Source: Cryptosporangium arvum DSM 44712
Lineage (GTDB): Bacteria; Actinomycetota; Actinomycetes; Mycobacteriales; Cryptosporangiaceae
Length of the DNA: 64,000 nucleotides
Reading direction: 5' to 3'
NCBI RefSeq assembly: GCF_000585375.1
Contig: NZ_KK073874.1
Coordinates: forward strand, 9,087,913-9,151,912
A model generated the notes under the pieces. That model was not told where the DNA came from and searched no databases. It saw only the letters and a program-made list of their open reading frames with translations. Of this stretch, positions 56,947 to 62,500 are shown piece after piece. Position numbers and translations under genes: made by a program. Position 1 is the first letter of the stretch. The number at the start of each line of letters is the position of its first letter.

Positions 56947-58119
56947 TCAGTTGGGCATCGGAACGAAGTCCGCGCGGGTGCCACTCGGCGCAGTGGTGTC
57001 CGGACGGACGATGACGAACCCATCCGCTCCGGCGACCCCGCGGAGCATCGCCGACCCGGCGTGCGGCAGCGTCACCGCGCCGTCGGGCGTCAGGCGAGCC
57101 AGCGCCAGGTGGGTGAAACTACCCCGCCCCGGCACGTCGTTGGCGACCGACACCGACGCCAGCGGTGGCAGAGGCGCACCGGACAGCCCCGCGATCAGCG
57201 GCGCCGCCAGCGTGACCAGCCCGATCACCGCCGACTGCGGGTTGCCCGGCAGCCCCACCAGCCAGCCGGCGCCGGGCCCGGTCAGCCGGGCGGTGAGCAT
57301 CGGGAAGCCGGGGCGCACCGCCACCGTGTCGACGACGTAGGACGCGCCCAGCGTGGCCAGCGTGGGGTGCAGGTGGTCGACGGGTCCGTGCATGGTGCCG
57401 CCGGTGGTGACGACCACGTCGGACCGGGCGGCCGCGGCACGCACCGCGGTCTCGTGCGCCTCCAGCGTGTCGGCGGCCCGTGTCACCGACACGACCTCGG
57501 CTCCGAGGCGGCGCATCCAGGCGGGCAGCGAAGGCCCGAGAGCGTCACGCACCCGGCCCGCTCCGGGCGGCCCGCTGTCCAGCAGTTCGTCCCCGAACAC
57601 GACGACCGCGACCCGGGGCCGCCGGCGCACCGCGAGCACGTCGTGGCCGCAGGCCGCCGCGAGCGCCAGCACACCGGGCGTCACCCGGACGCCCGGCGGC
57701 AGCAGCACCTCACCGGACGCCGCTTCCTCGCCGGTCGGACGCCACTCCTGTTTGTCGGGGAGCGGCGCGGTGACCCAGGAGCCGTTCTCGACCTCGGAGC
57801 TCTCCAGCCGGATCACGTGCTCGGTGCCGACCGGAACCATCGCGCCGGTGGCGATCTCCACCGCGGTGCCGGGCACCACCGTGATCTCGCTGGCGTCGCC
57901 GGCCAGAACCTGGCCGACCAGACGCCAGGGCGCCGGGCCGGCGACCGCGTAACCATCCACGCTGGACGTGTCGAACGCCGGTAGCGCGGTGAGCGTGACG
58001 AGGGGCGTCGCCAGCACGGCGCCGTCGGCCTCGGCCAGCGGCACCGGGCGCCCGGGAAGCGGGGTCGCCGCCGAGTGGACGGCCGCTCTGGCGTCGTCCC
58101 AACTGATCGGATCGGTCAC
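56947..58119 (-). CDS. moeA: Molybdopterin molybdotransferase MoeA
   Basis: A 390-residue protein with the MoeA domain order: TDPISWDDARAAVHSA, the FDTSSVDGYAV loop, GAMVPVGTEHVI, a MoCF domain with VVTTGGTMHGPVDHLHPTL, GLPGNPQSAVIG and a C-terminal beta domain ending ADFVPMPN. It inserts molybdate into adenylated molybdopterin. GTG 58119 overlaps the mog stop by 4 bases, so it is coupled to it. moaE follows after 11 bases. Confidence 0.95.
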   Translation of the reverse strand: MTDPISWDDARAAVHSAATPLPGRPVPLAEADGAVLATPLVTLTALPAFDTSSVDGYAVAGPAPWRLVGQVLAGDASEITVVPGTAVEIATGAMVPVGTEHVIRLESSEVENGSWVTAPLPDKQEWRPTGEEAASGEVLLPPGVRVTPGVLALAAACGHDVLAVRRRPRVAVVVFGDELLDSGPPGAGRVRDALGPSLPAWMRRLGAEVVSVTRAADTLEAHETAVRAAAARSDVVVTTGGTMHGPVDHLHPTLATLGASYVVDTVAVRPGFPMLTARLTGPGAGWLVGLPGNPQSAVIGLVTLAAPLIAGLSGAPLPPLASVSVANDVPGRGSFTHLALARLTPDGAVTLPHAGSAMLRGVAGADGFVIVRPDTTAPSGTRADFVPMPN

Positions 58120-58604
58120 GCGTGCCCTCCGGGGTGGTCTCCGCCGTGCAGCTGATCGATCGCGTGTGCCAGCACGGGGCCGAGCACGGCCAGCCCGTCC
58201 TTGGCGCCACCGCGGGAGCCGGGAAGGTTGACGATCAGCGTGCGACCGGCGACCCCCGCGATGCCGCGCGACAGCATGGCCGTCGGGATCCGCGGTACCG
58301 CGTACGCGCGGAGCGCTTCGGCGATGCCGGGGATCTGGTAGTCGAGCACGGCCGCGGTGACGTCAGGCGTGCGGTCGGTCGGGTTGATGCCGGTTCCGCC
58401 GCTGGTCAGTACGGTGTCGACGCCGTCGGCCACCGCCGCGCGCAACGCGTCGCCGACCGGGTCGCCGTCCGGGACGACGACGGGGTCGCCGACCTCGAAC
58501 CCGAGCGCGCGCAGGCCCTCGACGAGCAGCGGCCCGCTCGTGTCCTCGTAGACGCCGGCCGCGGCCCGGTTGGACGCGACGACGATGCGCGCGGTGCGGC
58601 TCAT
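58116..58604 (-). CDS. mog: MogA/MoaB-type molybdopterin adenylyltransferase
   Basis: A 162-residue MoCF-domain protein with VLTSGGTGINPTDRTPDVT as the molybdopterin-binding signature and IVNLPGSRGGAKDGLAVL near the end. It adenylates molybdopterin before metal insertion. ATG 58604 overlaps the moaC stop (ATGA), and its own stop overlaps the moeA start, so the order moaC-mog-moeA-moaE is a tightly coupled operon. MogA and MoaB cannot be told apart from sequence alone. Confidence 0.92.
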   Translation of the reverse strand: MSRTARIVVASNRAAAGVYEDTSGPLLVEGLRALGFEVGDPVVVPDGDPVGDALRAAVADGVDTVLTSGGTGINPTDRTPDVTAAVLDYQIPGIAEALRAYAVPRIPTAMLSRGIAGVAGRTLIVNLPGSRGGAKDGLAVLGPVLAHAIDQLHGGDHPGGHA

Positions 58605-59080
58605 CGGTCCGCCGGCCGTCGCCAGGAACCGGTCTTGCCGCCGTCCTTGGCCTCGCAGCGCACGGCGTCCAGCGAGGCCGCCGGATCGACCGCCTTCACC
58701 ATGTCGATGAGCGTCAGGCCGGCCGCGGCCACCGCGGTCAACGCTTCCATCTCCACGCCGGTGCGGTCGGCGGTACGCGTCGTCACGGTGATCGCGATTT
58801 CCGCGTCGCCGATTTCGAAGTCGACGGTCACGCCGTGCAGTGCGATCGGATGGCACAGCGGAACCAGGTCGGGGGTGCGCTTGGCGCCCATGATCCCGGC
58901 GACGCGGGCGACCGCGAGCGCGTCGCCTTTCGGCAGGCCGTCGCGCCGGAGCAGGCCGATGACCTCGGTCGTCGTGCGCAGGAGGCCGGTGGCCACGGCG
59001 GTTCGGACGGATTCGGACTTCGCGGAGACGTCGACCATCCGAGCCGACCCCGCCGCATCGACGTGACTGAGCTCCGGCAT
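58601..59080 (-). CDS. moaC: Cyclic pyranopterin monophosphate synthase MoaC
   Basis: A 159-residue protein with LSHVDAAGSARMVDVSAK at the start, KRTPDLVPLCHPIALHG, TGVEMEALTAVAAAGLTLIDMVKAVD and a C-terminal GGKTGSW, all MoaC landmarks. It converts the MoaA product to cyclic pyranopterin monophosphate. ATG 59080 is the first gene of the minus-strand cofactor operon. The 66-base gap to the divergent PtsI-like gene holds its promoter. Confidence 0.96.
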   Translation of the reverse strand: MPELSHVDAAGSARMVDVSAKSESVRTAVATGLLRTTTEVIGLLRRDGLPKGDALAVARVAGIMGAKRTPDLVPLCHPIALHGVTVDFEIGDAEIAITVTTRTADRTGVEMEALTAVAAAGLTLIDMVKAVDPAASLDAVRCEAKDGGKTGSWRRPADR

Positions 59081-59146
59081 GGCTCCAGAGCTTACTGTCC
59101 GTCCCTGGCCGCATCCGGCAGCGGCCTGGTTCGATAATGTCCAGTC

Positions 59147-60040
59147 GTGAGTGCACCGCTACGCGGCCGGCTGGCCGACGGCCAACCGGTCACCCTGCTC
59201 GCCGAACTTGTCGACCCCGCCGAGGCCGATTCCGCGGTCGCGGCCGGGGCGGAGGGCGTCGGTCTGCTTCGGAGCTGGTTCGCCGTCCGTCCCGACGGTT
59301 CCCCCGTGCCGACCGGAGATCAACTGAGCGGCTACCGACGTGTGCTGCGCGCCTTCCCCGGTGCCCGGGTGACCATCGAGGCCCTCGATCCCGGGGAACG
59401 CCAGGGCGCGTTCGGGATTCGCGGCGTGCGCGCGCTGCAAGCCCGTCCGGACGTGCTCTCCGCTCAGCTCGACGCGATCGCCGGCGCGATGCGGGAGACC
59501 GGCGCGCACTCGGTGGACGTCGGGGTCGTCACGTCGATGGTGAGCGAGCCGGACGAGGCCGCCTGGTTCCTCGAGGAAGCGCGGTACGGCGGGGTGGCCA
59601 CGGCCGGCGTGCTCGTCGACCTGCCTGCGGCCGCGTTGCTCGCCGGCACGATCTTGCGCACGGCGTCGTTCGCGACGATCGACCTCGACAGCCTGACCCG
59701 GTACGCGGTGGCGGCGGACCCGTCGGCCGGAAGCGGCCACTGGTACGACCCGTGGCAGCCGGCCGGCTTGCGCCTCGCCGAGCTCGTCGGGGCGTCCGGT
59801 TCGTTGGCGGGCAAGGAGATCAGCGCGCGCGGTGCCGCTGCGGCCGATCCGCTGCTCGCCTGCGTCCTGATCGGTCTGGGCATCACCAGCCTGGTGCTGC
59901 CGGTCGACCGGCTCGAGACGGTGCGTACCGCGCTGGCCGAGCACAAGTTCAGCGACTGCCTGCGCTACGCCGAGCTGGCCACCCGGGCGGCGTCGGCGGC
60001 CGACGCCAAGCGCCGCGTGGTCGCGGCCGTCGACCGCTAG
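59147..60040 (+). CDS. PtsI-like PEP-binding barrel protein with replaced catalytic residues
   Basis: A 297-residue protein that aligns along its length with the PEP-binding domain of PTS enzyme I: GAEGVGLLRSWFAV (EI: GVGLLRTEF), YRRVLRAFPGARVTIEALDPG, FGIRGVRALQARPDV, VTSMVSEPDEA, LVDLPAAALLA, SLTRYAVAADPS and ARGAAAADP. The key residues differ: the Arg of the IRTLD motif is Glu, the metal Glu of VEIPAA is Asp, Asn-Asp of TNDLTQY becomes Asp-Ser, and the CGE cysteine is Arg. The HPr-binding domain and active His are absent. It should be non-catalytic; a PEP/pyruvate-sensing role is possible. GTG 59147 is the start. Confidence 0.75.
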   Translation: MSAPLRGRLADGQPVTLLAELVDPAEADSAVAAGAEGVGLLRSWFAVRPDGSPVPTGDQLSGYRRVLRAFPGARVTIEALDPGERQGAFGIRGVRALQARPDVLSAQLDAIAGAMRETGAHSVDVGVVTSMVSEPDEAAWFLEEARYGGVATAGVLVDLPAAALLAGTILRTASFATIDLDSLTRYAVAADPSAGSGHWYDPWQPAGLRLAELVGASGSLAGKEISARGAAAADPLLACVLIGLGITSLVLPVDRLETVRTALAEHKFSDCLRYAELATRAASAADAKRRVVAAVDR

Positions 60041-60110
60041 GCCGTGTCCTGTGAATCTCGCTCGCAGCGAGGCACCGCTCAGGCGCGCACGGATTCGCAG
60101 AACACGGCCT
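60039..60110. terminator. Bidirectional hairpin between convergent genes
   Basis: AGGCCGTGT (60039-60047) pairs with ACACGGCCT (60102-60110), and pairing continues with GTGAATC against GATTCGC across one mismatch and a G-U pair. The arms include the stop codons of both convergent genes. It is a likely shared terminator. Confidence 0.65.
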
Positions 60111-62158
60111 TACGCGCCGGTGGTACGGGTGGACGTGACCAGTTCGCGCAGCGAGACGCCGGAGCCGATCCGCTGCCAGCGACGCTGGGTCCAGGCGTGC
60201 AGCGTCCAGCCGTCCCTGGTGACCGCGGCCAGCACCCGTCCGTAGCGCTGCGCGACCTCCTGTAGCAGCGTCTGGATCCCGGTCTCGACCTGCACGGCCC
60301 GCCCCTGCTGGGCCGGGCTGAGCGGCTCGGTGCGGGCGACGTCGTGCTCGATGCCGCCGAGGCGCTGCGGTAACGCCGTGAGGACGCGGCCGACCGCGTC
60401 GCCGAGGGTCAGGTCGATCTCGGGCGGGGCGTACCGGCTCTGAGCGCCCCGGTGGGTCACCGCGAGGCCCCAGCGCAGCCGCCCGCGCGGGTCGACGGCG
60501 ATCGCGAACTCCGCCCGCGCGTCCACCCCCAGCACCGGGCGCAGCAGCGACTCGACCGGCACGTCACCGGGCGGCCGGACGAAGTAGACCAGGCGCCCAC
60601 CGGGCCGGCCCGCCGTGAGCCGCGCCAGGTACTCGGCCACGACCTCGCGGGGATCGCTCAGGTCGGTGGCCAGGACGCCGTCGCGGGCCAGCGCGCCGAT
60701 CGAGCGGATGCCGTGGCTGCACAGCCAGTCGACGTCGACGCCGAACGCCTCGGCCCAGGCGACCGCGGTGAGTTCCCGGGGCACCCGCGCGCAGCGCACG
60801 CCCTGGTCGTTGACGAAGAACTCCACGTCGGGCGTCTTACCGATCCGCAGGTTTGTGGTCTGTCCACGCCCGCCGGGGCCGATCAGCGTCACGACCGCAC
60901 CGAGGTGGACCAGACGGGTGTCGTCGCAGCCGGAGCAGTACGGGTCCGGTGCCCGCCCGACGCCGGCGCAGCGCGGACAGTCCGGCGTCGCGACGTCGTC
61001 CAGATAGGTGCACGAGCATTCGCGCCACGCCACCCCGGACACGCAACGCGCGCAGCGCTGCGTCGGAATCGACGGGCCCAGCCAGGGCGGGGTCTTCAGG
61101 TCGTCGACGCGACCGACCACCCGCTCGACGGTCGACCGCACCTGGCCGGTCTGCTGCGCCGCGAGCAGTTCCCGCTCCTCGACGACCTGCAGGGCGGAGA
61201 GTTGCCAGCGGCCGTCCCGCCAGGTGGCGCTGCCACCGGCCGCACCACCGGCCGTGATCGAGACGGCGGCGACGAGGTCCTCCACCGTCCACGCCGACGT
61301 GCCGTCACCGGCCGGCGGCGGTGCGGCGACCACCCAGTGGCCGGCCGCGGTGGTCGCGCCCTTGGCCTGCTCGACCAGATCGGACGGGGTGTGCGCGAGT
61401 AACGACTCGACGAGCGTCGACGTACCCGGGTACCAGGCCTGACCCTGCCGGGGGTGGGCGCCGGGAACCTCGAACGCGACCGACCAGAACCCGTCCAGGA
61501 ACCGGACGACCAGATCGAGCCGTCCGGCGTCGGCGGCGCGGCGCAACTCCACGAGCCGCTGCTCGGGGTCGGTCTCGGCCCGGACGCCGTCCGGGTAGCC
61601 GACGTACAGGTGCCACCGGCGGCGCCCGGCCCACTCGGCGATCGCGGCCTGTTCGGCGGCGGCCTTCTCGGCCTCCGGCGACGCGGGCGACCAGGTGTCG
61701 GGCAGGTAGATCGGGGTGGCCAGGTCGTGGCTGGAGAGCGGCCGGTCGAGCATGTCGTAGAGCGTGTCGACACCGACGCGGGTGGCCAGCTCGCCGACGA
61801 TCGCCGAAAGGTCGATGATCCAGCGGCCGGGCCGGGCCTCCCACGGCACCGGCTCGAACGCGCCGGGGACGACCTGCACGGAACCGGTCTGGCCGGTGAC
61901 GGCGTTGACGACCGTGACCACGCCCTGGGCGAGCAGCGACCCACCCTGGCGACACGGGAAGCACATCACCGTGGTCTCGCCGGTGCCCCGGCAGATCTCG
62001 CAGTCCGGGTACGGGTCGGAGTCGGAGAGCAGGAGACGGCCGCTCACCAGGAACTCGGTTCCGTTGTGCCGACAGGCGCACGGAGCGATCCTGAATCCGA
62101 GACCGTCGCACGCCGGACAGGCGATGAGCGCGGGCTCGACCGGAGCGGTGTCTGTCAT
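60110..62158 (-). CDS. Large protein with DnaJ-type zinc fingers but no J domain
   Basis: A 682-residue protein. The N-terminal 75 residues hold two CxxCxGxG knuckles (CPACDGLG at Cys14/Cys17 and CEICRGTG at Cys53/Cys56) with further Cys at 27, 29, 66 and 69. A second cysteine cluster sits at about 367-415 (CARCVSG, CSCTYL, CPRCAGVG, CSGCDD). Between and after them are alpha-beta regions without recognisable motifs, ending with a helical tail. The zinc pattern matches DnaJ, but no HPD J domain is present. ATG 62158 is used. Its function is unknown. Confidence 0.75.
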   Translation of the reverse strand: MTDTAPVEPALIACPACDGLGFRIAPCACRHNGTEFLVSGRLLLSDSDPYPDCEICRGTGETTVMCFPCRQGGSLLAQGVVTVVNAVTGQTGSVQVVPGAFEPVPWEARPGRWIIDLSAIVGELATRVGVDTLYDMLDRPLSSHDLATPIYLPDTWSPASPEAEKAAAEQAAIAEWAGRRRWHLYVGYPDGVRAETDPEQRLVELRRAADAGRLDLVVRFLDGFWSVAFEVPGAHPRQGQAWYPGTSTLVESLLAHTPSDLVEQAKGATTAAGHWVVAAPPPAGDGTSAWTVEDLVAAVSITAGGAAGGSATWRDGRWQLSALQVVEERELLAAQQTGQVRSTVERVVGRVDDLKTPPWLGPSIPTQRCARCVSGVAWRECSCTYLDDVATPDCPRCAGVGRAPDPYCSGCDDTRLVHLGAVVTLIGPGGRGQTTNLRIGKTPDVEFFVNDQGVRCARVPRELTAVAWAEAFGVDVDWLCSHGIRSIGALARDGVLATDLSDPREVVAEYLARLTAGRPGGRLVYFVRPPGDVPVESLLRPVLGVDARAEFAIAVDPRGRLRWGLAVTHRGAQSRYAPPEIDLTLGDAVGRVLTALPQRLGGIEHDVARTEPLSPAQQGRAVQVETGIQTLLQEVAQRYGRVLAAVTRDGWTLHAWTQRRWQRIGSGVSLRELVTSTRTTGA

Positions 62159-62500
62159 GGAACCTCTTCGGGTTGCCTCGACCCTGTACTTCACACTCGC
62201 AGAGCGTGTCTAGCGAGCGCTTCACGGTAGCGTTTGTACCGCCGTTGCGGGAGAGGTATCTGTTAAACATTGCCGTACGTTTGGCAACCGTCGACATAAT
62301 CTCCGGTTAAGTCCCGCTTTGAACTTTTCTTAGTTTTAGACGCCATTAAGGTTTATCGGCCTGTCAGAGCCAGGTTCCGTGCCGCGCGCTCTCGGACCTC
62401 TGCACGACACTGTGACAAGGTTGTGTCAACTGACGGGAAGCCACGTTTGACCAGGCCGGGCCGGGCAAAACTGTCTTTATCGGGCCGAAAGGAGCCATGA
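62159..62500. other. 342-base divergent intergenic region
   Basis: No gene is visible. It holds an AT-rich stretch (about 62255-62355), TCTAGCGA at 62209-62216 and the inverted repeat TGACA/TGTCA (62413-62417 and 62424-62428) upstream of the DUF4383 gene. GAAAGGAG precedes that gene's start. It presumably contains both divergent promoters. Confidence 0.6.

Follow-up and report, generated by a model that had tools for sequence, protein, structure and literature searches.

A standalone enzyme I barrel with replaced catalytic residues, conserved within the genus Cryptosporangium

Introduction

The closest described relatives of the gene reported here are the PTS enzymes I (EI; Pfam family PF02896, PDB entries 2xz7 and 2bg5), in which we take the metal-binding Glu to be Glu431 and the active-site Cys to be Cys502 (E. 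coli numbers). The handling of PEP by EI is described in those parts of PMC9856155 that were available to us: Arg 296, 332, 358 and 465 encircle the PEP phosphate, the PEP carboxylate is held by the backbone of residues 454–455, and dimerisation is the job of the C-terminal domain (EI-C). The accessible part of PMC5537066 counts the b3a3 loop as part of the dimer interface. An earlier description of a standalone inactive EI-C was not found in the open-licence PMC literature, which is not proof of its absence. Here we analyse a gene for a standalone, probably non-catalytic EI-C barrel in the window, the whole stretch of DNA under study (64,000 nucleotides from Cryptosporangium arvum DSM 44712), together with its relatives in sister species and wider genome samples.

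Results

An EI-type barrel standing alone

The gene is located as follows.

59147–60040, plus strand: barrel gene, standalone EI-C and putative PEP-utilizers_C pseudoenzyme; 297 aa, GTG start, Pfam match, open reading frame intact in 4/4 genus genomes

An earlier note on this DNA had treated 58601–60040 as one PtsI-like gene; its EI-type barrel stands, its span does not, since 58601–59080 is moaC on the minus strand. The product matches PF02896 (PEP-utilizers_C) over residues 8–266 with 92 bits (E = 4.8e-26; cut-off 22.8) and the EI domains of PDB entries 2bg5/2xz7 at E = 1.7e-27, bearing out the PEP-binding barrel fold proposed there, and it covers only the C-terminal half of the NCBIfam EI model TIGR01417 (94.9 bits versus a cut-off of 341.7). 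A Pfam scan of the 297-aa reading frame returned PF02896 as sole match, with no second domain and no N-terminal EI domain with its phosphorylatable His (PF05524, PF00391). An AlphaFold2 model built with two sequences reached a pLDDT of 58; Foldseek with this low-confidence model ranked EI domains first and HpaI/CitE types at weaker scores.

Compared with PTS enzyme I, the protein has the same barrel and keeps the motifs GVGLLR, ALD, G.RGVR, P.AA and DPW.P, but it lacks the EIN/His domain, is replaced at the Arg332, Glu431, Asn454, Asp455 and Cys502 sites, carries a loop deletion, and belongs to a genome without a separate HPr gene. The DhaM-HPr-EI fusion of the same genome (L001) also contains an EI-C domain; unlike the barrel protein it has the full domain set with intact residues, and it falls into a separate clade of the tree. 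The C-terminal domain of PEP synthase/PPDK shares the Pfam domain at a weaker sequence match, with similarity lower than to EI, and the barrel protein has none of the phosphate-carrier or ATP domains of those enzymes. HpaI/CitE-type pyruvate aldolases resemble it in the weak Foldseek match of the low-confidence model, far weaker than that to EI, and gave no sequence match in profile or PDB searches.

Catalytic sites replaced and fixed in the genus

Active-site residues were compared in an alignment of 41 EI-type rows from related genomes with the four genus copies (the window copy, G000, and those of the sister species G001, G002 and G003).

59378–59380, plus strand: codon 78, Glu replacing the PEP-phosphate Arg (EI Arg332); Glu in 4/4 genus copies, Arg in 41/41 EI rows
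59387–59395, plus strand: codons 81–83, site of a 12-residue deletion in the b3a3 loop, conserved DKPL gone; gap after codon 81 or 83 depending on the alignment
59618–59620, plus strand: codon 158, Asp replacing the metal Glu (EI Glu431); Asp in 4/4 genus copies
59687–59692, plus strand: codons 181–182, Asp-Ser replacing Asn-Asp (EI 454–455); Asp-Gly in the three sister species
59720–59722, plus strand: codon 192, Pro replacing Arg (EI Arg465); Arg, Arg and Gly in the sister species
59828–59830, plus strand: codon 228, Arg replacing the active-site Cys (EI Cys502); Arg in 4/4 genus copies

Glu78, Asp158, Asp181 and Arg228 are identical in all four genus copies, and all 41 EI-type rows have the catalytic residue at those sites; position 182 reads Ser/Gly/Gly/Gly and position 192 Pro/Arg/Arg/Gly (order G000, G002, G003, G001). 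The arginine cluster 296/332/358/465 is incomplete in the window copy, two of its four members being gone (332 = Glu, 465 = Pro), and where EI has the metal ligands Glu431 and Asp455 and the active-site Cys502, the barrel protein has Asp, Ser (Gly in the sister species) and Arg. Two residues past the Cys-Gly of the Cys502 position, Ala takes the place of the Glu of the EI rows. The residues of phosphotransfer have thus been lost along with the N-terminal His domain, and the protein is probably non-catalytic. In the alignment all four genus copies retain two of the arginines, EI 296 (in GLLR) and EI 358 (in GIRG), and the protein may therefore still bind an anionic ligand weakly. At least 95% of the 41 rows agree at 95 aligned positions; of these the barrel protein keeps 62 and has changed 33, and five conserved columns are deleted besides; the four genus copies are identical at 214 of 297 positions (72%).

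The four replacements listed in the earlier note (Glu for the IRTLD Arg, Asp for the metal Glu, Asp-Ser for Asn-Asp, Arg for Cys) are all seen in the window copy, and within the limits of sequence evidence its term pseudoenzyme finds support in the fixed replacements at Glu78, Asp158, Asp181 and Arg228 together with purifying selection (see below). Its phrase that all catalytic residues are replaced goes too far in view of the arginines at EI 296 and EI 358, and the invariance that it wanted checked was found for Glu78, Asp158, Asp181 and Arg228 within the genus and not at the Asp455 site, which is Ser or Gly. Intact catalytic residues in homologs, which it had held against its own reading, occur in relatives outside the genus and in none within it. 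Three losses are missing from the note: Arg465, the Glu that follows Cys-Gly, and the 12 deleted residues with DKPL among them.

Descent from enzyme I

In a maximum-likelihood tree of 54 C-domains (4 from the genus, 41 EI-type and 9 fusion-type rows, the last sorted by frame length and clade, with Pfam scans among the EI and fusion rows for L001 and L035 only), the genus copies form one clade (100/100) among the EI-type rows, apart from the nine longer fusion-type rows. By descent the barrel protein therefore branches within the EI clade. The stem of the genus clade measures 1.54 substitutions per site and its tips 0.055–0.15. The nearest row is L035, with weak support (82/58), and because of the long stem the clade's precise position among the EIs may be distorted. 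An origin from PPDK/PEP synthase or from DhaM was rejected because the genus copies group with the EI rows; two PPDK-like proteins of the window genome (L002, L003) had no tblastn match in the row collection and are both outside the tree.

Distribution

All four genus genomes examined contain the barrel gene, which makes a chance match untenable; with the sister-genus genome G004 included, the count is four of five genomes of the family. The sister-species copies share 84, 83 and 80% identity with the window copy. Matches at E ≤ 1e-5 were found in 29 of 61 related genomes, as a standalone gene in the four of the genus. In larger samples, at least 204 of 397 genomes of the order (E ≤ 1e-20), 69 of 394 of the class (E ≤ 1e-46) and 4 of 396 of the phylum (E ≤ 1e-50) gave matches, the samples of 61, 397, 394, 396 and 5 genomes overlapping one another. 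The matches listed for the order, class and phylum include no clear standalone copy beyond the genus; as the class and phylum searches report only E ≤ 1e-46 and E ≤ 1e-50, a further-diverged standalone copy would escape them. Among the matches listed, the closest beyond the genus are actinobacterial proteins of EI length with at most 49% identity and intact residues.

Apart from the standalone set, the matches listed are long frames with five exceptions. G035 (226 aa) was rejected as a standalone copy, being part of a fusion-type protein with matches in three frames, as was the match on contig C76 of G003 (246 aa), which is the end piece of the G003 fusion, lying at a contig edge. The match on contig C470 of G004 (309 aa) is not a fragment of a standalone gene; it is the beginning of an ordinary EI, cut off by the contig end. 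The frames in G646 (333 aa) and G283 (429 aa) begin 77 and 383 bases from the contig start. A wider family of standalone copies was accordingly rejected, none being clear outside the genus among the matches listed from these overlapping samples. Contig scans found no relative on viral contigs, and a search of genome contigs returned one EI locus. The EI-C descendant has so far been seen in this genus only.

Loss of extra constraint in the active-site loops

Active-site loops were defined as positions 42–55, 78–94 and 181–204 (limits from the accessible part of PMC9856155), to which we added positions 158 and 228. Quartets of canonical EI rows with similar total variation served as controls; they overlap and share rows (23 of the 41 EI rows), so that their counts are not probabilities. 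In canonical EIs the loops vary less than the rest, at a variability ratio of 0.22–0.62 (median 0.42; 456 quartets), and the genus has a ratio of 1.10, which no control reaches in either quartet set. Leaving out gapped columns gave control ratios of 0.25–0.63 (1408 quartets), and for the loops alone (gapped columns and positions 158 and 228 out) the genus stands at 1.15 versus 0.27–0.66 in controls. Variable positions in the genus number 16 of 57 in the loops versus 62 of 235 in the rest. The extra constraint on the loops has been lost. This loss is the main argument against any function based on the pocket (PEP sensing and a new enzyme activity alike) and in favour of one carried by another surface. 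From these four genomes we infer that the protein would act through a surface other than the pocket.

Three segments have become constrained instead.

59162–59221, plus strand: codons 6–25, newly constrained segment; 4/20 positions variable, lowest control 5/20 (fraction 0.25 without gapped columns)
59762–59821, plus strand: codons 206–225, newly constrained segment; 2/20 variable, lowest control 3/20 (fraction 0.25 without gapped columns)
59942–60001, plus strand: codons 266–285, newly constrained C-terminal segment; 3/20 variable, lowest control 4/20 (fraction 0.20 without gapped columns)

All three lie below every control quartet in variability in both quartet sets (for codons 6–25 the gap-free run is based on just the 473 quartets with sufficient ungapped columns), and segments 126–145 and 186–205 are more variable in the genus than in any control. 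The newly constrained segments may form one surface, which the AlphaFold model (pLDDT 58) is too poor to show. Changes on the stem amount to 22/39 in the loops versus 16/61 elsewhere when positions 158 and 228 are included (p = 0.003), and to 20/37 versus 18/63 without them (p = 0.018); with the five deleted columns also left out, p is 0.11. We are less sure, therefore, that stem changes concentrate in the active-site loops.

These tests bear on the idea that the pocket was rebuilt for a different substrate, making the protein a new enzyme or binding protein, which we consider unlikely. Arg42, Trp44, Glu78, Asp81, Arg92, Asp158, Asp179, Asp181 and Arg228 are identical in all four copies, and the fold superfamily includes other enzymes (the HpaI/CitE types, at weaker Foldseek scores and with a low-confidence model). 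With 72% of all positions identical, however, fixation in the pocket is not special, and the argument from pocket conservation failed when tested, as the loops vary as much as the rest.

PTS components in the genus and its sister genus

Each genus genome has one HPr match, which lies inside a DhaM-HPr-EI fusion, and a separate HPr gene is found in none of the four. The domains of the fusion were scanned in the window genome; by tblastn, G001 and G002 each have a homologous fusion, and so does G003, where it is divided between two contig ends. In the window genome the fusion (L001:1408-3795, minus strand, 795 aa) is the only full-domain EI found. The PF02896 proteins of this genome are the barrel gene product, the fusion and the two PPDK-like proteins, with no other non-fused EI among them. 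A fusion-type EI elsewhere (L116; G035:C23:38500-45500) matches the window genome's fusion in three reading frames and is thus broken by frameshifts or sequencing errors.

G004, representing the only other genus of the family examined, carries on contig C470 (L107) a GntR regulator, EIIB, EIIA and HPr, together with an ordinary EI of which the first 295 codons are present. This EI runs to an intact RTEF, at which the contig ends, and the catalytic residues beyond RTEF lie outside the contig. EIIC was found in none of the five genomes by its family PF02378, other EIIC families being outside the search; since G004, with EIIA and EIIB, is also without PF02378, a loss of the permease in the genus is not shown.

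Could the barrel protein modulate the remaining EI, the fusion, by forming mixed dimers with it? Apart from the barrel protein, the window genome yielded no EI but the fusion, which has homologs in the other three genomes, and EI-C is responsible for EI dimerisation according to the accessible part of PMC9856155. Against this, the b3a3 loop, part of the dimer interface in the accessible part of PMC5537066, is 12 residues short here, and the barrel copy is not close to the fusion-type clade of the tree. We regard such a role as decidedly unlikely.

The moaC neighbourhood

The barrel gene is divergent from a run of genes on the minus strand in which moaC comes first, followed by mogA, moeA and moaE.

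58601–59080, minus strand: moaC (cyclic pyranopterin monophosphate synthase); TIGR00581 and PRK09364 over cut-off
58116–58601, minus strand: mogA/moaB-type MoCF_biosynth gene; PF00994
56947–58119, minus strand: moeA; PF03453, PF00994, PF03454
56462–56935, minus strand: moaE; PF02391
59081–59146, between the genes: divergent intergenic region of 66 bp; TAnnnT box 6–7 nt before the barrel start codon in 4/4 genomes, by eye
60039–60112, between the genes: hairpin where the barrel gene and a 694-aa gene converge at their 3' ends; fold of 60036–60116 at −45.4 kcal/mol, z −5.3

The position of the TAnnnT box, whose function we infer, suggests that the barrel mRNA is leaderless. The stretch before moaC is also alike across the four genomes (comparison by eye), so that the barrel and moaC units each seem to own a promoter. 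The hairpin is a probable shared two-way terminator. The 694-aa protein (60110–62194, minus strand) has several CxxC pairs and no Pfam family above cut-off; among the 61 related genomes it was found in five, which all belong to the same family.

The genes flanking the barrel gene (the 694-aa gene on one side, moaC, mogA and moeA on the other) are kept in 4/4 genus genomes, and for this reason its adjacency to moaC says little; no association beyond general synteny within the genus was found. In G004, the 2,255 bases upstream of moaC contain no barrel gene and instead hold ABC-transporter genes: moaC follows genes for a solute-binding protein and an ABC permease there (L108:1-2729), and in one genome from another family it follows the gene of an ABC ATPase that has a TOBE domain (L077:385-1968). 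Given these ABC genes, moaC is probably behind a molybdate transporter in both. In the window's genus the position before moaC is taken by the divergent barrel gene.

The earlier note had raised a PEP or pyruvate sensor that would bind its ligand without catalysis and report to the divergent moaC unit. Although the PEP-contacting arginines at EI 296 and 358 are kept, and the 66-bp divergent region in the window goes with an adjacency to moaC in all four genomes, Arg332 is Glu in 4/4 copies, Arg465 varies and the metal Asp455 is Ser or Gly. The active-site loops are no more conserved than the rest of the protein, no second domain is present for an output, and the sister genus has another moaC neighbour, with the whole neighbourhood kept within the genus anyway. 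We judge a sensor very improbable and that proposal unsupported. Conservation beside moaC, which the note had made a test, is found within the genus and not within the 2,255 bases upstream of moaC in the sister genus. A functional tie of the barrel protein to molybdenum cofactor synthesis is not implied.

Continued selection

Pairwise dN/dS of the barrel gene is 0.10–0.22 across the four genus genomes (six pairs), compared with 0.05–0.15 for moaC, 0.07–0.11 for mogA and 0.06–0.09 for the sequenced part of the 694-aa gene. The gene is not decaying at such values, and selection on it has continued; much of its change lies on one branch, with conservation since. A pseudogene on the way out, for which the lost catalytic residues and a dN/dS above that of moaC in five of six pairs and above mogA and the 694-aa gene in all six might speak, is already contradicted by the intact frame of 297–303 codons in 4/4 genomes, by the dN/dS values themselves and by pN below pS (approximate Z 8.6–11.0 in the three pairs, out of six, that were tested, the fraction of synonymous sites being an assumption), which leaves it next to no probability.

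Discussion

We favour, with moderate confidence, the reading that the barrel protein is a domesticated remnant of an actinobacterial ptsI, a dead EI barrel retained as a scaffold for binding or regulation. More tentatively, and at slightly less than even confidence, we propose a non-catalytic regulatory or scaffold role acquired after loss of the general PTS phosphocarriers, in which the working surface moved from the active-site face to the helices at the side of the barrel and the C-terminus. It is the tests of loop constraint and of selection that carry the scaffold reading, whose scope is four genomes of one genus.

The order of events would be as follows. In the ancestor of the genus, the general PTS phosphocarriers (a separate HPr and a full EI) may have been lost, leaving the C-terminal barrel of an EI alone beside moaC. 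A burst of change would then have dismantled PEP phosphotransfer in the barrel, presumably making it incapable of phosphorylation and probably ending PEP sensing, before purifying selection came to keep the altered form. Binding of something else, a protein partner or a new ligand, might have arisen through the newly constrained b1/a1, a6 and C-terminal helix, and the protein, expressed from its own promoter, could serve as scaffold or regulator.

For the family, the two genera come near to a before-and-after case of the retirement of an enzyme, with an ordinary EI and its phosphocarriers in G004 and an altered barrel under selection in the genus of the window. Their comparison could reveal which parts of EI-C have functions that need no phosphotransfer.
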